The notes beneath the pieces are model-generated. The model did no database searches and was not told the origin of the DNA. It saw only the letters and a list, made by a program, of their open reading frames with translations. A DNA stretch of 36,131 nt, taken from contig JABGPJ010000106.1 of NCBI GenBank assembly GCA_018645005.1, forward strand, positions 1-36,131. The letters run 5' to 3'. The stretch comes from Deltaproteobacteria bacterium (GTDB lineage: Bacteria; SAR324; XYD2-FULL-50-16). Below are positions 2-28,618 of the stretch, piece after piece (positions within the stretch are counted from its first letter, which is position 1; each line of letters starts with the position of its first letter). A program made the translations under genes and the position numbers.

Positions 2-751
2 TTCAGCGATCGGTTGAGCATTCGCTGTCAATGTATATCTCTCGGTCGGGGTGTATCCCACTTCACTGATTCTACAGTCAGAATCGGACATTTCTGCGAT
101 AATTTTTTGAGAGGCATCCCTGTCGTTGATTTCCGGAGACAGGTCTAACGCCCTGCAGAAAACAGGTTCCCATTCAATATTCGCTGTTTTAAGCAGGCCG
201 AATAAACCACCAGCTATAGGACTGGCGTCAGAGTCAATTTGATATCCCAGTTTTCCGTTAATCCGGGTGACGGTCATGAAAACCGTACGCTGTCTAGATG
301 CCGCTTCGTTAAGGGGTTTTGCCAGGTGTTTGGCGATTAAAAAGACCAGCTTCAACACCTGTTTCTCATTGTTGGAGAATCTTTTCTTTGCAGATAAATC
401 GAAGTTTAGGCGTGGGTGTAGATGGACAAACGAAACAATGGGGCCATGAGTCTGCTGAATCTGGCCGAGAGTCTCCGTCAGGCATGGCTCATCTGCTTTT
501 TTCAGAACAAAGGAGTGTGCTGCTTTGGATTCGATTTCACTGGGTGGGATTAGCGCTTTTGGAAGTGCAAGAATGACAATACGGTTCCAACCCTTCTGCT
601 CCAAAGCGGAGACCAGTGTCCGCGTCAGCGGTGTGCCATCATCTGTGATGAGGCAGGTTTGATCCCGGGAGGGCATGAATTCCAAAGGATCCGGCGTGAG
701 AAGTTGTTTCAGCCGGACCGTCTTTCTTAAAATCCGATGGGTTAGTTCATC
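2..751 (-). CDS. PfaA-type synthase, ketoreductase region (partial, off left edge, -1 frame relative to the upstream CDS)
   Basis: On the minus strand this frame stays open for about 250 codons to the window edge. It overlaps the end of the upstream KS-AT-ACP gene in the -1 frame. The translation resembles the structural half of the ketoreductase (KR) region of PfaA. It contains GLFGLLKTANIEWEPVFCRA, then LDLSPE and EVGYTPTERYTL, which matches the family pattern of a GLxKTxxxEWpxVFCRAxDL stretch before the NADPH-binding part. It has no convincing start of its own: PfaA-like sequence begins about 25 codons before the first ATG (EFMPSRD), and that ATG lacks a good ribosome binding site. The simplest reading is that this is the C-terminal continuation of the same polypeptide, joined by frameshifting or transcript slippage at the A10 run at 754-763, or split by a sequencing error or mutation. 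The catalytic half of the KR lies outside the window. Confidence 0.72.
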
Positions 752-3700
752 AGTTTTTTTTTTGGGGCGCCTTCTTGGTCTGGTGAGGCAACAGTTCCGA
801 TTCCCTGGCTCATCTTTTCGATGATCTGCTCCAGGGTTCTCAACTCAGAAAGATCTTCCGGATTGATTTCCGGCAGGTCCGGTAGCCGCTCTTGAATCCC
901 ATTTAGGATTTCTACCCGTTTGATAGAGTCGATCCCCAGATCCGCTTCCATGTCCATATTCAGCTCAAGCATTTCGGCCTGATAGCCGGTTTTTTCGCTG
1001 ACCACTTCAAGCAACGTTCGTGACAGTGTCGGCAGATCAATGTCTGAGTCGGACACTGTTGTGTCAGTTGCTGGCGGCACTGCAACTGGTGTGCTTCCGC
1101 TTTGTATTTCCGCAGTCATGTGCTCAACAATTTGACCCAGTGTTCTGAGCTCTGAAAGTTCTTCCGGGTTGACAGGCGGCAGATCCGGCTGTTTTTCTTG
1201 AATACCGTTTAATATTTCAACCCGCTTGATGGAGTCGATCCCCAGATCCGCTTCCATGTCCATGTTCAGTTCCAGCATTTCTGACTGATAGCCGGTTTTT
1301 TCGCTGACGATGTCCAGGAGAATTCTGATAAAGAGCGCTTTGTCCACACCCTCGATGATGGGTGTTGCAGTGACAGCCTTCTGAGCCTCTGCAGGAGAGG
1401 GGATATCACTTCCACCTTCCTGTCCGGGAGACATGTGGTCAATAATCTGCTTAAGCGTTCTCAGTTCGGACAGCTCTTCGGGATTAACCGGCGGCAGGTC
1501 GGGCATCTTTTCCTGAATTCCGTTCAGTATTTCGACTCGTTTGATTGAATCGATCCCCAGATCCGCTTCCATATCCATATCCAGCTCAAGCATCTCAGCT
1601 TGATAACCGGTTTTCTCGCTGACAACAGCCAATAATGCCTCTTCAAGTGTTTTAACAGAGAACGCTGAGCTGGGAGATTCCGGGGCTGCTTGAACTGGTG
1701 CGACCGTTTTCAAAGGTTCAGGAACTGGTGCCGGCTGAATCGGCATCGGAGCGGGAGGTGCAGGTGCAGGTGGCGTATAGGGCTTAGACTGTGTGCTGAA
1801 AGTCGGAGTGACTGCCGGTTGTTGCAGCGGCTGGGTTGAGATGGGTCTGAACTGGCCGGCTGAGCTGCCCCCCACTGATTGCTGTTGCCGTAGAATCTCG
1901 AATGAGTTTTGAGAATAAGCGGCTTGTTGCTGTAAATACTGTTCGTGAATTCGGAGGGTGTCACCCTGATGTTTGTGAAACTGTCCAATACTTTGAGCGA
2001 CTTCAGGTGACATGGTTGCCGCTCCGGATTGTGCTTGTTGCTGCATGATCTGAAAGAAGCTTCTGGAGTATTCAGACTGACTGCTTAAAAACTGTTCATG
2101 CAGATGCAGGGTCTCACTTTGATGCTGATGAAAACTGGCCAGGTTACGTTCAAGTGATTCAATTGCGAACTGAGCTTTTTCTGCCCTTTGATTCGTCTGC
2201 TGTTCAATTGTGATTTCTGTTTCTGGATCTGGTTTATTCATTTCTGGTTTCTGAATCTCGTTGGGGATGATCGGCTGAGGAGTTTGGGCTGTACTTGACT
2301 GGATTTTGTGCCCGTCGTTTAATGCCTCTTCAAACACCTTTTTTGTTTTTTCACTGACATAATTCATGCCGCTGAGTTTCAAGGTCAGGGCGTTCTTTTT
2401 GGTTTCCTGCATTTCAGGAATGAGTTGGTATGGGTCGATATCGTCGAGGGCCAACCCGGCTACCCGCAGATGTATGACGGCCTCTCGGAATTGTCGATCG
2501 CTGTCTTTTTTCGCATTGGCGTTCAAGGCGACAGAGATATAGGGCTTATCCTGCAGAATATTGCTGACAAGATTCGAAAGGATGCTCTGGGGACCGAATT
2601 CGATAAAAAAGTAGCCGCCGTCATTATAAATGCTTTCTATTTCATCCTTAAATCGCACCGAGTTTAGAATATGGTCCTGCAGTGTCTTCTGGATGACTTT
2701 TGGATCCTTGCTGTATTGTTTTCCGGTAGCATTAGAATAGACAGCGCACTTGGGTTTGGAGAACTTGACACTTTTGATGGCTTCTGCAAATGGTTTTTGG
2801 GCGTGTCCTACCAATTTCGTATGGAATGCCGCGGATACACCCAGCAGTTTCGTGCGATACTTTTTCTTCTTCAGATGTTTTTGGACTTCAATCACGTCTT
2901 TCTTTGGGCCTGCCACGATCACCTGGCTTTTGGAATTCATATTGGCCATGGTGATCTCTGGGAATTCGCTGATATCCGTTTCAAGGTTTTCAACCTCCCC
3001 CATCACAGCCAGCATGCTACCGGCATCAAAATCGGGATCGTCCGGTGCGGCCATCGCTTTCCCTCGGGCTTTAGCCAGAGTAAAATAGTCTTCGGTGCTC
3101 AATACCTTTGCTGCCCAGAGAGCAGTCAGCTCTCCAAAACTATGTCCGGCAACAAAATCAGGTTCAAATCCCACCTGATTCAGAATTTGCATCTGTCCCG
3201 CGCTGAACACGCCGATAGCCGGCTGAGCATTTTCTGTCAGTTGTAACCGTGCGGCTTGCTCTTTCTTCTCCGTTTTATCAAATGTGGGCGGTGGGTAGAC
3301 GATGTCGGAAAGCGGATTGAGAGCATCTTTGATAAAGAGTTCGTCCATTGCGATCTGGCTTTCCATCAATGGTGGAAAATTATAAACCAGCTCTTTTCCC
3401 ATATTGGCGTATGGGGAACCTTGTCCGGCAAACAGCGCCACTACTTTACCTTTTGGATTGATGCCTTTTCTCCGGAAGTAAATCCCCTGTGGTAGATCCC
3501 AAAATTCTTCTTCCGGTTTCTCCTTGAGCGTCTCGATACTTAATGTCAGAAGAGTGACTGCTTCTGAATCGGATTCCGCGACAAAACCAATTCGGGCCGA
3601 GTTTTCAGCAGGGTTTGTCGAGCGGCTGTTTTCTGAAATCCGGTAAAAAGACAGGTCTGAATGGTCGGACTTGAGCTCTTCAAGGGTCTCTAGACAGGTC

Positions 3701-5214
3701 GCAAGAAGATCTGCGGGAGTGTCAGCAGAGAATAAAAATGGTTGCGGGACCTTATGAATTCTAAATTTACCCGCCTCCTTTCTTTTATACTCTTCCAGAA
3801 TAAAGTGAAAATTAGTACCACCAAATCCAAAAGCGCTGATGGCGGCTCTCCTTGGTGGGCTGCTATCCGGATGAATCCAGGGACGAACAGATGTGTTAAA
3901 ATAAAACGGAGAGGATTCCAGGTCGAATTCCTTGTTGGGCTCTTTGAGGTTTATTGTGGCCGGCAGAATCTTGTGATATAGCGCCAGCGCTGTCTTGACG
4001 ATACCAGCGGATCCGGCTGCGTTTTTAGTGTGACCCATTTGCGATTTGATACTTCCCAGAGCGATTTTTTTTATTCTCTGATCGTGGGCTTCATAAAACT
4101 GTTTTAAAGCACTGATTTCAGCCAGATCTCCTGCTGCCGTCCCAGTACCGTGCGCTTCCAGCAGGTCTATAGTGGCGGGTTCAACACCGGCATCTTTATA
4201 GGCTCTCTGCAGAGCCAGCATCTGACCCTCAGCTCTCGGAGCATAAATGCTCTTAAAGCGTCCGTCGCTGGAAGAGCCGTTTCCCTTGATGACCGCATAA
4301 ATTCTGTCGTTATCCCGTTCGGCGTCGACAAGTCTTTTTAAAAGAACCATGCCGATGCCTTCTCCCATAATCATACCGGAAGAGTTGACATCAAAAGGTT
4401 GCGAGTTTTCATCCGGGGAAAAGGCCTGGGTTTTACTGAAACAGAGAAACATGTATGGGGAGTTGTCGGTATCGACGCCGCCGGTAATCATCATGTCAGC
4501 TCGATAATCGAGCAGTTCGTTGATGGCCATGCGAATGCCACTGAAGGAGCTGGCACAGGCGGCGTCTACCACACAATTGGTTCCGCCAAGGTTCAATCTG
4601 TTGGCAATCCGCCCGGCAACGATGTTGCCCAGTGCGCCAGGAAAGGAGTTTTCCTCCCATCCCACATAGGCCTTTTTAATCTTTTCGACGATAATGCCTG
4701 TATCCTGGTCCGATACCCCACTGTTCTTGAGTACCTTTTCCCAGATCGGATATTGCAGGCGTGAGATCAACGGTACCATCAGTTTTTGCCCGCCACCCAC
4801 ACCCAGGATGACACCCGTATTTTCACGCACTTTATCAGAGGCATCTACATAGCCCCCATCCTTCATTAACTGTTTTGCAGTAATCAGAGATAATAACTGA
4901 TGGACATCTGTTACTTCCAGAATGTTGGGCGGTAATCCGAACTCCAGCGGATCAAAGTCGATATCCGGGATAAACCCCCCTCGCTTGCAATAAGTCTTAT
5001 CTTCCGCTGTTGGGTCCGGATCATAATAATCTTCTATATTCCAGCGCGAAGGAGGGACATCAGTGATGCAGTTAATCTCTTTGACAATATTATCCCAATA
5101 ATCCTGCAGGTTTTTAGATTGGGGGAAAATTGCAGACATGCCAATTATGGCAATGGGTATCTCCTGCAGTCTCGAATGCAGTTTTTTGTCTGTGTTATTT
5201 TTTTTAACCGGCAT
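742..5214 (-). CDS. pfaA: PfaA-type polyunsaturated-fatty-acid/secondary-lipid synthase, KS-AT-ACPx3
   Basis: Large iterative type I fatty-acid/polyketide synthase that loads malonyl units and condenses them on tandem carrier domains. Numbering is from the ATG at 5214, which has GGAG six bases upstream; an in-frame TTG at 5226 is less likely. A ketosynthase fills about residues 20-465, with active Cys220 in DAACASS and histidines 355 (EAHGTGT) and 395 (MGHTKNAAG). An acyltransferase follows at about 590-900, with nucleophile Ser692 in GHSFGE. A Gln/His-rich linker carries two copies of a helical repeat. Three near-identical acyl carrier domains have phosphopantetheine serines at about 1223, 1328 and 1430 (LGIDSIKRVEIL). 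The KS opening (SRWNIEDYYDPDP, CKRGGF) is typical of PfaA. The frame ends just after ACP3 at a run of ten A residues, and KR-like sequence continues in the -1 frame. The lipid product cannot be told from sequence. Confidence 0.9.
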   Translation of the reverse strand: MPVKKNNTDKKLHSRLQEIPIAIIGMSAIFPQSKNLQDYWDNIVKEINCITDVPPSRWNIEDYYDPDPTAEDKTYCKRGGFIPDIDFDPLEFGLPPNILEVTDVHQLLSLITAKQLMKDGGYVDASDKVRENTGVILGVGGGQKLMVPLISRLQYPIWEKVLKNSGVSDQDTGIIVEKIKKAYVGWEENSFPGALGNIVAGRIANRLNLGGTNCVVDAACASSFSGIRMAINELLDYRADMMITGGVDTDNSPYMFLCFSKTQAFSPDENSQPFDVNSSGMIMGEGIGMVLLKRLVDAERDNDRIYAVIKGNGSSSDGRFKSIYAPRAEGQMLALQRAYKDAGVEPATIDLLEAHGTGTAAGDLAEISALKQFYEAHDQRIKKIALGSIKSQMGHTKNAAGSAGIVKTALALYHKILPATINLKEPNKEFDLESSPFYFNTSVRPWIHPDSSPPRRAAISAFGFGGTNFHFILEEYKRKEAGKFRIHKVPQPFLFSADTPADLLATCLETLEELKSDHSDLSFYRISENSRSTNPAENSARIGFVAESDSEAVTLLTLSIETLKEKPEEEFWDLPQGIYFRRKGINPKGKVVALFAGQGSPYANMGKELVYNFPPLMESQIAMDELFIKDALNPLSDIVYPPPTFDKTEKKEQAARLQLTENAQPAIGVFSAGQMQILNQVGFEPDFVAGHSFGELTALWAAKVLSTEDYFTLAKARGKAMAAPDDPDFDAGSMLAVMGEVENLETDISEFPEITMANMNSKSQVIVAGPKKDVIEVQKHLKKKKYRTKLLGVSAAFHTKLVGHAQKPFAEAIKSVKFSKPKCAVYSNATGKQYSKDPKVIQKTLQDHILNSVRFKDEIESIYNDGGYFFIEFGPQSILSNLVSNILQDKPYISVALNANAKKDSDRQFREAVIHLRVAGLALDDIDPYQLIPEMQETKKNALTLKLSGMNYVSEKTKKVFEEALNDGHKIQSSTAQTPQPIIPNEIQKPEMNKPDPETEITIEQQTNQRAEKAQFAIESLERNLASFHQHQSETLHLHEQFLSSQSEYSRSFFQIMQQQAQSGAATMSPEVAQSIGQFHKHQGDTLRIHEQYLQQQAAYSQNSFEILRQQQSVGGSSAGQFRPISTQPLQQPAVTPTFSTQSKPYTPPAPAPPAPMPIQPAPVPEPLKTVAPVQAAPESPSSAFSVKTLEEALLAVVSEKTGYQAEMLELDMDMEADLGIDSIKRVEILNGIQEKMPDLPPVNPEELSELRTLKQIIDHMSPGQEGGSDIPSPAEAQKAVTATPIIEGVDKALFIRILLDIVSEKTGYQSEMLELNMDMEADLGIDSIKRVEILNGIQEKQPDLPPVNPEELSELRTLGQIVEHMTAEIQSGSTPVAVPPATDTTVSDSDIDLPTLSRTLLEVVSEKTGYQAEMLELNMDMEADLGIDSIKRVEILNGIQERLPDLPEINPEDLSELRTLEQIIEKMSQGIGTVASPDQEGAPKKKLMN
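754..763 (-). other. A10 slippery run at the PfaA frame junction
   Basis: On the coding strand the frame reads CCA AAA AAA AAA CTG ATG AAC TAA. A -1 slip, or one extra A in the transcript, enters a frame that stays open to the window edge and encodes KR-like sequence. An AAGAAGG motif resembling a Shine-Dalgarno sequence lies just upstream of the run. A hairpin (GGTCCGGC with GCCGGATCC, one bulged base, 687-719) lies about 34 bases downstream, which is farther than usual for a frameshift stimulator. Homopolymers of this length are also classic sites of RNA polymerase slippage and of sequencing indels. Confidence 0.55.
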
Positions 5215-5758
5215 GTTTATCTCCAATGGTTCACCAGTTTGTATAAAACGATCAATAATCAGATGGTTCCGATGCGGTAATGTAATGAATCCAAGGTGTC
5301 GGGTGCAGAATTTTCCGCTGTCGGTTCAAATCGATGAATTCAGCCGGTTCCTGCCGGTTGATGGGTTTTATAGTGACTGGTCGCTTCTTCCTCTTTAAAT
5401 GAGCCATCGTACTTGCTGATTTGGCTGATTAAAAGGCTGTGCTGTTGAATGTCTTCATGATCTTCTCTTTTATCATTAAAAAAAGAAGTCGGCAAATGCA
5501 GTTGACTCTCTGCACTGTGCAGATAGTCACTGGCAGGCGATTCAGCTCGTAAGGGGTTTTATCTGCATTTCAGTTGCAAAACAAAGGCGCGACGTTAGTT
5601 TCTCTTTTCTTGAAATGCATAAATGATTCCTTAAGAAAAGCGTCATAAATCGAGAGCAGACAACAATCAGACAGGGGTTGGGAAACGGTGCTGCCGGTAA
5701 GTGTTTTAAGAGCTTACCGGAGCGTGTTGCTGAACGGAGACGAGAGACTGGCGATTTT
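5215..5758. other. Intergenic region upstream of pfaA, no convincing gene
   Basis: This is 544 bases between two minus-strand genes. A minus-strand frame between about 5342 and 5558 stays open for roughly 72 codons and reads like a plausible, acidic, hydrophilic peptide (for example HEDIQQHSLLISQISKYDGS). It has no ATG or GTG start and no ribosome binding site, so it is not called as a gene. A 16-codon minus-strand ORF (5570-5620, starting MHFKKRE) with AAGGA upstream could be a leader peptide or chance. The promoter of pfaA presumably lies here, but I could not pick one out. Confidence 0.4.
5694..5720 (-). terminator. Hairpin downstream of the 399-residue hypothetical gene
   Basis: A perfect 8-bp stem (CCGGTAAG with CTTACCGG) encloses an 11-base loop and begins about 40 bases past the stop codon of the gene ending at 5759. 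There is no U-tract after the stem on the minus strand, so it may be a processing or attenuation hairpin and not a classic intrinsic terminator. Confidence 0.35.
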
Positions 5759-6958
5759 TTATGAGGTTAAAAACTGAATATGTTCCTTGTTTTTGATATC
5801 GATTTTAACAGTGGATTCTTCCTCACTCTTTTTTTCGGATTTCGTCTCAACTTTCTTCTTGACTGTCACCTGATTGATAGCAGAAGAGGTCATTTCCGAA
5901 AGCGCCTGCTTTCGATTTCGGGCCAGACGATCGGTCGCTCCGGTGAGCATATCCTTATAGGTTATCTCCAGGCTGTCCATTTCATGGCAGAGTGCGGTGA
6001 GGATATTGACGCTGTCTTGCGTTTCATTGGCCTCCACAGAAAAGAAACTGTCCAGTGGAAGTGCATTCAACGGTTTCGCAATTTTTTTCTGAAAATTGGT
6101 GACCGCTGTTTTGGGCAACTCCTTACCCTGTTGCAATCGTACGACTTCCATAACAAATTTTAAGAGGGTTTCCCGTTTGAGAACATCGACTGAACAGTAA
6201 CTCAAAAACTTCTGATAGCTTTCAAAATATTCGCTGGGAACCAGCAGGATGCAATTAACCGGGTTCTGAACATCGAGGGTTGCTATTTCAAGTTCGCGGC
6301 CTGTCTCAGCATCTCCATGTACCATCAAGACAAACTCGTACGCCTCTTTGAAAAACTGATTAAGATTGGCCGCCATTTCAATGGAAAAACTGAAATCTTC
6401 CGACAAGTGATATTTGACGAGTAGCTGCGTAAATCCCTCTTTCTGAATCTCCCCACCCGCTGACTTAAGAACAGATGAAATGGCCAGATACTTTTCCAGG
6501 TATGAGTCCCAGCGGATACCGACGCGGTCAATCGCCATCAGAAAGGCAATCAAGACCTCGTTGTTGGCCACCGATTTTTCATACTTAAAAAATTCCCAAT
6601 GGGTCTGCAGAAGGTCATAAATCTCTTCTGATACCACTTTCAGCGCATTGAGGTCGTTGATGAAATTGTCTTTGAAATCGTTTGCTTCAATAAACTGTTC
6701 CAGCTTGATATTCTCGGCCAGAAATTGCTTTTTGGTTTTCTCAATCGACTTGCAATACTCCTGATCAAAAAGCCGGGATCGAATTTCATTCTGGATAAAG
6801 TGTCCCAGCGTATTTGCCTCAACATGTTTTCCAAAGTTAGCGAAAAAATCGTTACAAAGCTGGGTATAAAAGCCGAATGTTTCCTGCATGAGCTTGAAAA
6901 AGGCGTCACTCACAGGAATCGTCTTTTTGAACTGTTTATGTAATTCGCTGATTATCAA
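5759..6958 (-). CDS. Hypothetical protein, mostly helical, 399 residues
   Basis: I do not recognise this family. The start is a TTG at 6958 with GGAG five bases upstream; no better ATG exists nearby. The predicted product is soluble, with no signal peptide or membrane segment. It is rich in Phe, Leu, Glu and Lys, with long stretches that look alpha-helical throughout. The last 50 or so residues form a charged, low-complexity tail of alternating Lys and Glu/Ser (around KKKVETKSEKKSEEES) that could be a flexible linker or binding tail. No catalytic motif is visible. It lies between ndk (upstream, 93 bases away) and the pfaA-like gene (downstream, across a 544-base gap), all on the minus strand. 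A functional link to lipid synthesis is possible but unsupported. Confidence 0.75.
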   Translation of the reverse strand: MIISELHKQFKKTIPVSDAFFKLMQETFGFYTQLCNDFFANFGKHVEANTLGHFIQNEIRSRLFDQEYCKSIEKTKKQFLAENIKLEQFIEANDFKDNFINDLNALKVVSEEIYDLLQTHWEFFKYEKSVANNEVLIAFLMAIDRVGIRWDSYLEKYLAISSVLKSAGGEIQKEGFTQLLVKYHLSEDFSFSIEMAANLNQFFKEAYEFVLMVHGDAETGRELEIATLDVQNPVNCILLVPSEYFESYQKFLSYCSVDVLKRETLLKFVMEVVRLQQGKELPKTAVTNFQKKIAKPLNALPLDSFFSVEANETQDSVNILTALCHEMDSLEITYKDMLTGATDRLARNRKQALSEMTSSAINQVTVKKKVETKSEKKSEEESTVKIDIKNKEHIQFLTS

Positions 6959-25659: not shown

Positions 25660-25777
25660 AAAAAAGACGAAATAAGATAAATATTCAAAGAGATTGTTAG
25701 TGATAAAAAAAAATGCCCGAGAGTTGCAACCGGAAAACAGTAACGGTTCGGAGAGAAACGGATCAACAATTAATGAG

Positions 25778-28618
25778 ATGGATAATATCATTGTCAAAGG
25801 GGCAAAGGAACATAATCTCAAGAATATTGATGTGACATTTCCAAAAAAAAAGTTGATTGTTTTCACTGGGGTTTCTGGCTCCGGAAAATCCAGTCTAGCA
25901 TTTGATACTATCTTCGCTGAGGGGCAAAGACGTTATATTGAGTCGCTCTCTTCCTATGCCAGGCAGTTTATCGGGCAGTTGGAGAAGCCCAAGTATGAAA
26001 CTATCAAAGGACTTTCTCCAACCATCTCCATCGAGCAGAAATCGGCATCTAAAAATCCGCGTTCGACAGTAGGCACCATCACTGAAATTTATGATTACCT
26101 CAGGGTTCTCTTTGCCCGGATCGGCGTTCAGTACTGTCACCGTTGTGGGGAAAAGGTCGGTCGTGGGGATGCCTCCAGCATGGTGGAACAGATATTCGAG
26201 ATGCCTGAGGCGACCCGGTTGATTATTCTGGCACCTGTGGTTGAGAATCGCAAAGGTGAATTTCGGGATCTACTTGAAAATCTGAAGGGAGATGGATATA
26301 CAAGACTCCGCATCGATGGCGTGATCCAAAATCTGACAGATGTGCAGACCCTATCTAAAAATAAAAAACACGCTATTGAAGTGGTGGTGGATCGTCTGAC
26401 CATCAAAGACGATGCTGCCTTCCGGCATCGGTTGACCGATTCGGTAGAGACTGCCCTGAAATTAGGCAGGGGAAAAATTATTGTTCATCTCCCTGAGGGC
26501 AGGGAAATCCCGATGAGTGAATACAGTACTTGTTGCGGTATCGCTTACCCGGAGCTCGATCCAACCCTTTTTTCCTTCAACTCTCCCAAAGGCATGTGCC
26601 TGGAATGTAACGGTTTGGGATCGGTTTTATCCATGGATGAGCATAAAATTGTACCAGACAGGTCACTCTCAATCAATGAAGGTGCCGTTGTGCCCTGGAA
26701 AAACTATTTTAATGGAAAACCCGGCAAGAGAGACGGATCCTGGGGGATGGAACACATCAAAGCTGTCCAGAAACACTGGGGTGTCGATTTTGACCTGGCG
26801 TGGGATTCATTGCCTGAATCTCATCGACAGCTTATTTTGTATGGTGCGGAAGGGGAGGAACTGGTCGTCAATTTCAGTTCGGCCAGAATTAAAGGAGCGG
26901 TCACGATGCCTTTCGAGGGTGTGATGAACACCTTGATGCGTCGTTATCTGAAGACGCAATCGGAATCGCAGAAGACATGGTATGGGAAGTTCATGTCGAC
27001 AAAAACCTGTTCAACCTGCAACGGGCTCAGGCTGAAATCGGAAGTGCTGCATGTCAGAATCACAGACCGGTCTATTGTGGATTTGACAAAGATGACGATC
27101 AGTGAGGTTTTTCAGTTTTTCAACCAGCTCTCACTATCGGGAAATCAGAAATTGGTGGCAGAGGAACTGTTGAAGGAGATCCTCGCCCGCTTGCATTTTT
27201 TGTTGAACGTGGGCTTGGATTATCTGTCTCTGGACCGTAAAGGTCCGACGCTATCTGGCGGCGAGTCCCAGCGTATTCGTTTGGCCTCACAGATCGGATC
27301 GGAGCTGACTGGGGTTTTGTATGTCCTGGATGAGCCCTCCATCGGGTTACATCAGCGGGATAACATCAAACTGCTGGGAAGTCTTTGTCATTTGCGGGAT
27401 ATCGGGAATACCCTGATTGTAGTGGAGCATGACCAGGAAACCATTGAATCTGCAGATTGGGTGTTGGATATCGGACCGGGTGCTGGAAAACTGGGAGGGG
27501 AAATCGTGGCAAGTGGCACCCCGGCTGATATCCGGGAAAATCCCTTATCCCTGACGGGCCTCTATCTGTCTGGCAAGGAGAAGATTTCGGTTCCCGGGAA
27601 AAGACGGAAACCCGGCAAAAAAAGTGCTGCCTGGATTGCCATTCAGAAAGCGGCTGAAAATAACCTGAACAATATCAATGTCAGGCTTCCATTGGGTCTG
27701 TTTACCGTTTTAACCGGTGTCTCAGGTGCGGGAAAATCTTCCCTTTTGAACCAGATCCTCTATCCGGCTCTGGCGCGTAAACTACACAACGCCATGTTAA
27801 CGGTCGGCAAACACCAGAAAATTCTGGGGTTGGAAAATCTGGACAAAATAATCAATATCGATCAAAGAGCGATAGGGCGGACACCACGCAGTAATACGGC
27901 CACCTATACCAAGGTTTTCGATTTGATCCGGGATCTGTTTTCTGAACTTCCCGAATCCAAAGCCCGAGGCTATAAAAAAGGCCGGTTTTCTTTCAATGTC
28001 AAAGGGGGACGCTGTGAGCATTGTAAAGGGGATGGATACATCAAGGTGGAGATGCATTTTCTGGCGGATGTGTTTGTTCCCTGTGAAGTCTGTGAAGGTA
28101 AGCGTTTTAATTCATCGACCCTGGAGGTTCGATTCAAAGGTTTATCCATTGATAATGTGCTTAATCTGTCGGTGCGAGAGGCCTGTGAAATGTTTGCGAA
28201 CCAGCCCAGAATCTTAACCATTCTGGAGACCCTGAACCAGGTTGGACTTGCCTATATCAAGCTGGGACAGCCTGCGACGACACTCTCTGGTGGCGAAGCG
28301 CAACGGATCAAACTGGCACGGGAGTTGGCAAAAAACAATACCGGGAGAACACTTTATATTCTGGATGAACCCACTACCGGTCTGCACTTCAATGACATTA
28401 AAATGCTGCTGAAAGTGTTGCAGCAACTGGTATCTACCGGAAACACCGTCATCGTGATCGAACATAATCTGGATGTGATCAAAAGCGCGGATTGGATTAT
28501 CGATCTGGGACCCGAAGGGGGTAAAAACGGCGGACGAATTTTGGCCCAGGGGCCGCCGGAAAAAGTCGCGGCCGCCGCTAACAGCTATACCGGGGCCTAT
28601 TTAAAAAAGGTGTTATAA
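25778..28618 (+). CDS. uvrA: Excinuclease ABC subunit A
   Basis: DNA damage sensor of nucleotide excision repair; with UvrB it scans DNA and loads UvrB at lesions. The first ATPase begins with GVSGSGKSSLAF (residues about 32-43), the second with GVSGAGKSSLLN. Signatures are LSGGESQRIRLA and LSGGEAQRIKLA, with Walker B stretches VLDEPSIGLHQRD and ILDEPTTGLHFND. Zinc-binding segments include CSTCNG and a CEHCKGDG...CEVCEGKRFN finger. The start was chosen at the ATG giving MDNIIVKGAKEHNLKNI, the normal family N-terminus; an upstream TTG at 25694 would add 28 unlike residues. The first insertion finger has CCG where CxxCG is usual. Confidence 0.96.
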   Translation: MDNIIVKGAKEHNLKNIDVTFPKKKLIVFTGVSGSGKSSLAFDTIFAEGQRRYIESLSSYARQFIGQLEKPKYETIKGLSPTISIEQKSASKNPRSTVGTITEIYDYLRVLFARIGVQYCHRCGEKVGRGDASSMVEQIFEMPEATRLIILAPVVENRKGEFRDLLENLKGDGYTRLRIDGVIQNLTDVQTLSKNKKHAIEVVVDRLTIKDDAAFRHRLTDSVETALKLGRGKIIVHLPEGREIPMSEYSTCCGIAYPELDPTLFSFNSPKGMCLECNGLGSVLSMDEHKIVPDRSLSINEGAVVPWKNYFNGKPGKRDGSWGMEHIKAVQKHWGVDFDLAWDSLPESHRQLILYGAEGEELVVNFSSARIKGAVTMPFEGVMNTLMRRYLKTQSESQKTWYGKFMSTKTCSTCNGLRLKSEVLHVRITDRSIVDLTKMTISEVFQFFNQLSLSGNQKLVAEELLKEILARLHFLLNVGLDYLSLDRKGPTLSGGESQRIRLASQIGSELTGVLYVLDEPSIGLHQRDNIKLLGSLCHLRDIGNTLIVVEHDQETIESADWVLDIGPGAGKLGGEIVASGTPADIRENPLSLTGLYLSGKEKISVPGKRRKPGKKSAAWIAIQKAAENNLNNINVRLPLGLFTVLTGVSGAGKSSLLNQILYPALARKLHNAMLTVGKHQKILGLENLDKIINIDQRAIGRTPRSNTATYTKVFDLIRDLFSELPESKARGYKKGRFSFNVKGGRCEHCKGDGYIKVEMHFLADVFVPCEVCEGKRFNSSTLEVRFKGLSIDNVLNLSVREACEMFANQPRILTILETLNQVGLAYIKLGQPATTLSGGEAQRIKLARELAKNNTGRTLYILDEPTTGLHFNDIKMLLKVLQQLVSTGNTVIVIEHNLDVIKSADWIIDLGPEGGKNGGRILAQGPPEKVAAAANSYTGAYLKKVL

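Follow-up and report, generated by a model that had tools for sequence, protein, structure and literature searches.

A conserved A10 run in a SAR324 pfaA-like gene: a probable slippage site with two predicted synthase products

Results

The pfaA-like gene and its frame break

The window (the whole 36,131-nt stretch of DNA analysed here, from a SAR324 bacterium; assembly GCA_018645005.1, contig JABGPJ010000106.1) carries on its minus strand a pfaA-like gene whose reading frame is broken at ten consecutive A residues. The features at this locus are as follows.

742..5226 (-), pfaA-like ORF in the 0 frame, KS-AT-ACP-ACP-ACP (Pfam KS, AT and three PP-binding stretches; TIGR02813, 1760 bits)
770..776 (-), SD-like AAGAAGG (12th percentile of control windows; absent in the same-genus relative L004; probably not functional)
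754..763 (-), A10 homopolymer, candidate slippage site, CCA AAA AAA AAA CTG (plus-strand T run 754-763)
742..744 (-), 0-frame stop TAA, three codons 3' of the A10, read from the sequence; the short product would end ...GAPKKKLMN
2..753 (-), -1 frame, KR region (N-terminal portion), truncated where the contig ends (TIGR02813 profile 1755-1979; 66% identity with the same-genus relative)
703..753 (-), proposed downstream hairpin region (z = +0.36, no better than shuffles; fold at the 40th percentile of controls)

The 0-frame ORF has 1494 codons when counted from the first possible TTG and corresponds to the predicted short product. Its score against the PfaA profile TIGR02813 lies above the cut-off of 1010 and covers profile positions 2-1489, while the -1 frame matches the same profile further along (E 4.6e-26). 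Joined, the two parts have the order KS-AT-tandem ACP-KR and align colinearly to that profile. Read on the minus strand, the context of the run is ...GGC GCC CCA AAA AAA AAA CTG ATG AAC TAA, and the predicted product joined across the A10 reads ...GAPKKKTDELTHRILRKTVRLKQL... An A_AAA_AAA heptamer of the X_XXY_YYZ type is present in phase within the run.

The initial annotation had described a KS-AT-ACPx3 frame that ends 12 nt after the ten A residues, a KR-like -1 frame that stays open for about 250 codons to the edge, and similarity that begins ahead of any usable start codon. All three descriptions are accurate. The -1 frame (2-769, minus strand) is open for 256 codons up to the edge. No KR-frame start codon lies 5' of the window's A10, and the first one 3' of it is a TTG located 23 codons after the run. 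The edge of the window is also the edge of the contig, so the KR part is incomplete owing to the assembly. This genome is a fragmented assembly (68% complete), and the rest of the window's KR-DH was not found on any of its other contigs. The companion gene pfaD was likewise not found in the window's genome, which is only 68% complete; it scores above cut-off in 13 of 13 SAR324 relatives, G001 among them.

The gene is adjoined by an ORF of 399 aa (5759-6958, minus strand) with no Pfam or NCBIfam match, a homologue of which also adjoins pfaA in the same-genus genome (L207). Elsewhere in the window, a second in-frame A9 is found at 25843-25851 (+) inside a uvrA-like ORF (25694-28618). It reads CCA AAA AAA AAG, encodes FPKKK, and has a motif of the type seen in pfaA.

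Conservation of the break

A set of 78 relatives was searched, their junction DNA was then read, and class- and order-wide searches added more. The same-genus genome (SAR324 clade, L004) has the A10, the early stop and the -1 frame as in the window, with a KR protein that is 66% identical over the stretch available in the window, and in the same-genus genome the KR part in the -1 frame runs on for 831 codons. Further members of the window's family share the break, as does a second family of the class, the usual sequence being GTA AAA AAA AAC TCC TGA. Outside the class it was found in Cyanobacteria (Nostoc, Xenococcus, Chrysosporum and Symploca), in Parabeggiatoa with related Gammaproteobacteria and in one bacterium of the Cytophagales, and a member of the Pseudomonadales has it at a short A6G site. 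Isolate genomes, for example that of Chrysosporum bergii ANA360D, are among the carriers. The signal at the ACP-KR boundary extends across five phyla, namely SAR324, Cyanobacteria, Pseudomonadota, Bacteroidota and, with one MAG, the Acidobacteria. The comparison that the initial annotation had recommended, whether the same run and frame break occur in related genomes, was therefore answered positively in the same genus, in the SAR324 class and in other phyla.

Invariant or near-invariant residues (P21 and D22 of alignment A1) are located close to the junction. In a codon-position test on 12 SAR324 genes, codons 19-55 of the -1 frame gave a clear result (p 4e-4); the first 18 codons pointed in the right direction, weakly (15 of 31 variable sites at third positions, p 0.06). 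In all 42 genes with a -1 break there is no KR-frame start codon 5' of the run. The first one 3' of it lies 0-65 codons on, at a variable distance and mostly inside the conserved domain.

A survey of 159 junctions

Our survey covers 159 distinct ACP-KR junctions; related genomes are not independent, so Fisher p-values computed from such counts overstate the evidence. The frame is continuous at 112 junctions, broken at -1 in 42 and broken at +1 in five. Every one of the 47 breaks sits at an A run, 46 of them at A8-A11 and one at A6G, and the five +1 breaks are confined to A9-A10. A run of A8-A12 is also present at the junction of 34 in-frame genes. In the junction DNA (25,244 nt, sense strand) we counted 74 runs of at least nine A residues, against three in 336,479 nt of coding sequence flanking the junctions of these 159 genes. 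This amounts to an enrichment of about 330-fold at the junction, with near absence from the remainder of these genes.

Stops in the alternative frames are close to the runs. In shifted genes the 0-frame stop comes at a median of one codon (11 in controls), whereas in run-bearing in-frame genes the -1 stop comes at a median of three (nine in controls). The nearer of the two alternative-frame stops is at most six codons away in 34 of 34 of these in-frame genes. Early stops in either polarity mean that the in-frame and the shifted arrangements lead to one prediction, a full-length protein accompanied by a short KS-AT-ACP form. A quick tree built from 158 KR sequences, several of its branches being long, requires no fewer than nine changes of frame state among run-bearing genes, which suggests that the run is kept while its polarity flips.

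The shifted KR ORF has about 1160 codons in L040 and L094 (Parabeggiatoa group) and in the cyanobacterial L036 and L037, compared with about 840 in SAR324, which points to extra sequence or domains after KR in these four. Two close cyanobacterial relatives, L183 (A9, in frame) and L184 (A10, broken at +1), represent a natural DNA-level toggle of a single A.

Neither a long run nor a heptamer is present in 51 of the 112 in-frame genes, for example those of Colwellia, Moritella and many cyanobacteria. This suggests that the short product is not needed universally. The initial annotation had held that unbroken homologues with no homopolymer would speak against recoding. Such homologues exist at 78 of the 159 junctions, yet 27 of these 78 have a heptamer of the dnaX type, and we do not regard their existence as a refutation.

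Short sites and stimulatory elements

A dnaX-type A_AAA_AAR heptamer is located at the junction of 27 in-frame genes that lack a long run. In the Shewanella/Photobacterium group (Parashewanella included), 13 of 13 genomes have CTA, GTA or TTA followed by AAA AAG, which creates an A_AAA_AAG in phase, and a -1 stop follows one to five codons on. Psychromonas, four cyanobacteria and MAGs of Gammaproteobacteria and Acidobacteria have similar heptamers. Codon choice at the junction is distinctive: a KK pair is coded NNA AAA AAR in 27 of 31 cases there versus 13 of 139 elsewhere, and in 13 of 13 versus 0 of 6 within the Shewanella/Photobacterium group. Two sister pfaA genes of Pseudomonadales (L048 and L051) share the same A_AAA_AAG with an upstream AGGAG; L048 is in frame and L051 is shifted by -1.

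An SD-like peak about 10 nt upstream (8-11 nt) was observed at the heptamer sites (n=28) and at the A8 sites (n=6), and was absent at sites with at least nine A residues (n=74). The short-site relatives (the 27 in-frame heptamers and L051) thus resemble the E. coli dnaX type, with the heptamer in phase and an SD duplex minimum at -11 to -8. One Psychromonas heptamer site also has a 12-bp hairpin (z = -5). At sites with at least nine A residues no general hairpin was found on the 3' side, the mean percentile being 0.44-0.50 in the two main groups.

The initial annotation had put forward AAGAAGG and a downstream hairpin as stimulators of frameshifting in the window, and neither proposal held up. 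The SD-like element is missing from the same-genus relative, where the corresponding score is at the 52nd percentile, and the predicted fold is no better than its shuffled versions. The window site has neither a conserved SD about 10 nt upstream nor a stable downstream structure.

Discussion

What the compared genomes show directly is the break in frame and how widely it is conserved, together with the statistics for runs, heptamers, stops and SD-like elements. Based on these observations, we predict that the A10 is a conserved slippage site in a pfaA gene with two products, and we put the probability of this reading at roughly two in three (0.68). RNA polymerase would slip on the A run and create a mixed pool of transcripts. 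Unslipped mRNA (10 A) would be read in the 0 frame and end three codons on, giving a short KS-AT-ACP3 protein, while mRNA with one extra A or two fewer would bring KR into frame and give full-length KS-AT-ACP3-KR(-DH). Some full-length product may be added by -1 slipping of the ribosome on A_AAA_AAA. In some relatives the polarity would be reversed, with the full-length protein as the default and the short form as the result of a slip. Lineages without a long run would use a ribosomal A_AAA_AAR site of the dnaX type with an SD at about -10. The occurrence of slippage and its efficiency, like the production and use of the two proteins, are inferred from sequence comparison. The proposal of the initial annotation that one gene gives a short KS-AT-ACP form and the full synthase by recoding is strongly supported by this comparison.

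Assignment of the mechanism depends on the class of site. The junctions have runs of about nine or more A residues at a domain boundary, conserved together with overlapping frames, with no SD peak at sites of at least nine A and with breaks in both directions, as would be expected of programmed transcriptional slippage genes of the Thermus dnaX type. The lack of an SD peak in this class favours transcriptional slippage over stimulated ribosomal frameshifting. The reading that fits best is that sites with at least nine A residues, the window's included, are sites of RNA polymerase slippage and that the short sites are sites of ribosomal -1 frameshifting; ribosomal -1 slippage may also contribute at the A10. 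One could instead propose that, in the manner of E. coli dnaX, most of the window's full-length product comes from -1 ribosomal frameshifting on A_AAA_AAA, aided by AAGAAGG and the hairpin. The heptamer is indeed in phase, the SD-like element is of moderate strength at the 12th percentile, and the related short sites look ribosomal, with their SD peak at -11 to -8 and the Psychromonas hairpin. However, the window's own SD is not conserved in the same genus, its hairpin is not significant, the A>=9 class lacks an SD peak with runs exceeding the 7 nt that a ribosome needs, and the +1 breaks at A9-A10 could not be read by a -1 ribosomal shift. We consider a mainly ribosomal origin doubtful.

Slippage might also take place without being programmed. 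In that case a lysine-rich linker acquired an A run, the frame was then lost through a 1-nt indel, slippage restores sufficient full-length protein and the short product has no function. Slippage rescue of broken genes is known (PMC1088944), the frame state toggles repeatedly among run-bearing genes as would be expected of near-neutral indels in a run, and half of the in-frame family has no site of any kind. The in-frame A9 of the uvrA-like gene also counts against our preferred explanation, as it indicates that long A runs are not wholly avoided in the window's genome. Against tolerated slippage stand the concentration of A>=9 runs at one place with near absence elsewhere in the same genes, retention of the run by in-frame genes despite the cost in product, stops in the alternative frames that are nearer than in controls in both polarities, and the use by unrelated lineages of a dnaX-type heptamer with an SD at the same boundary. 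Taken together, these make functionless slippage unlikely. Phase variation at the DNA level, in which changes of chromosomal run length would switch the full-length synthase on and off, has a parallel in the single-A difference between the cyanobacterial sisters L183 and L184, but 12 of 12 close SAR324 relatives keep an A9 and the -1 state, unlike a hypervariable locus. We view phase variation as very improbable.

A truly split gene, with KR translated from its own start by reinitiation as in Psychroflexus torquis and Aureispira marina, has precedent in Type D clusters, in which KS-AT-ACP and KR are separate genes (PMC3098273), and the cluster from A. marina is functional in E. coli (PMC4882568). 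None of the -1-break genes, however, has a KR-frame start before the run, the later starts are spread over 0-65 codons and are not conserved, and conservation of the -1 frame sets in at the run. Translation of KR on its own is unlikely, with only a slim chance of being correct, and we reject reinitiation on the basis of these start codons. Error in sequencing or assembly, or decay into a pseudogene, deserved consideration with an error-prone homopolymer in a fragmented assembly. We reject both, and attach a negligible probability to them, given that the same break is seen in the other genome of the genus and that independent assemblies from SAR324, Cyanobacteria, Bacteroidota and Gammaproteobacteria, isolates included, show it by the dozen. 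The same conservation excludes the error that the initial annotation had listed as an option. The A10 is almost certainly a built-in signal.

With regard to function, the predicted short form is a complete KS-AT-ACP3 protein and probably serves as an additional KS-AT-ACP subunit, acting beside the full-length protein or beside a separately supplied KR. Extra KS-AT-ACP subunits in a fixed ratio would be a reasonable role by analogy with organisms that have split genes, with the functioning A. marina cluster, and with the reported rise in PUFA yield with ACP number (PMC5067506). We lean slightly towards a wider proposal, suggested by the sequence comparison, in which PfaA-type synthases, including those of the Shewanella/Photobacterium EPA lineages, would form a broad dual-product family similar to dnaX. 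The signal at the ACP-KR boundary would set the ratio of short to full-length protein, and evolution would exchange polymerase slippage, ribosomal -1 frameshifting, gene splitting and polarity while keeping both products.

If this is true, PUFA and secondary-lipid synthases contain two PfaA proteins in a set ratio instead of one, which bears on how chain growth is shared among many ACPs and on why split pfaA genes work. Heterologous PUFA production would also be affected, since codon changes that remove the A run or the heptamer would silently drop the short subunit. A megasynthase family spanning five phyla would be added to the known cases, with transcriptional slippage and ribosomal frameshifting appearing to serve the same end. 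Genes that look broken in this way readily pass for pseudogenes or for pairs of ORFs in annotation, and many such synthases have probably been overlooked.

We found no report of recoding in PfaA or PUFA synthases in the literature, in which subscription papers were thinly covered, so that absence is not proof; the Antonov 2013 survey has a polyketide cyclase only. As far as the searched literature shows, the mechanism is already known in kind and its use by the PfaA family is apparently unreported. Our sites resemble the 9A slippage genes and IS elements of Baranov et al. 2005 (PMC1088944) in having conserved overlapping ORFs joined at 9A. The conserved cases there are, in contrast, IS elements and mapW, and the results consulted mention no polyketide or fatty acid synthase.

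Among PUFA synthases, the window's gene shares its family and domain order with the PfaA of the Shewanella/Photobacterium EPA synthases (TIGR02813), whereas the frame of the latter is continuous and has a heptamer in place of a long A run. The Type D genes of P. torquis, pfaA1 (KS-AT-ACP5) and pfaA2 (KR), are divided at the same ACP-KR boundary (PMC3098273), and arachidonic acid has been obtained in E. coli from the A. marina cluster, where KS-AT-ACP and KR are likewise separate (PMC4882568). KS-AT-ACP apart from KR can therefore work, although in both organisms the parts are described as separate genes, unlike in our case.

The closest parallels are the two dnaX systems. In Thermus thermophilus, slippage on a run of 9 T/A leads to about 50% full-length product, each of the two other frames contains a stop, and the gene yields tau and gamma (PMC5009743). 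Similarly, run-bearing pfaA genes have a long A run between functional domains, nearby stops and a predicted long and short product, and the in-frame ones fit this pattern (PMC5009743). The differences are that pfaA belongs to another gene family, that its runs range from A8 to A12 over several phyla, and that the unslipped default would be the short product in the window and at 46 other junctions. The E. coli dnaX arrangement (A_AAA_AAG, SD and hairpin) is approached by the pfaA genes of Shewanella/Photobacterium, Psychromonas, cyanobacteria and MAGs that have an in-phase heptamer with an early -1 stop, most of them with an SD-like peak at -11 to -8 and some with a strong hairpin. Unlike in E. 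coli dnaX, a hairpin is not general in pfaA, the window site is a long run without a conserved SD, and frameshifting in pfaA is a prediction from sequence. If long runs act through slippage and short sites through ribosomal -1 frameshifting, pfaA would be a case of the same two solutions that are found in the dnaX genes of Thermus and E. coli (PMC5009743).
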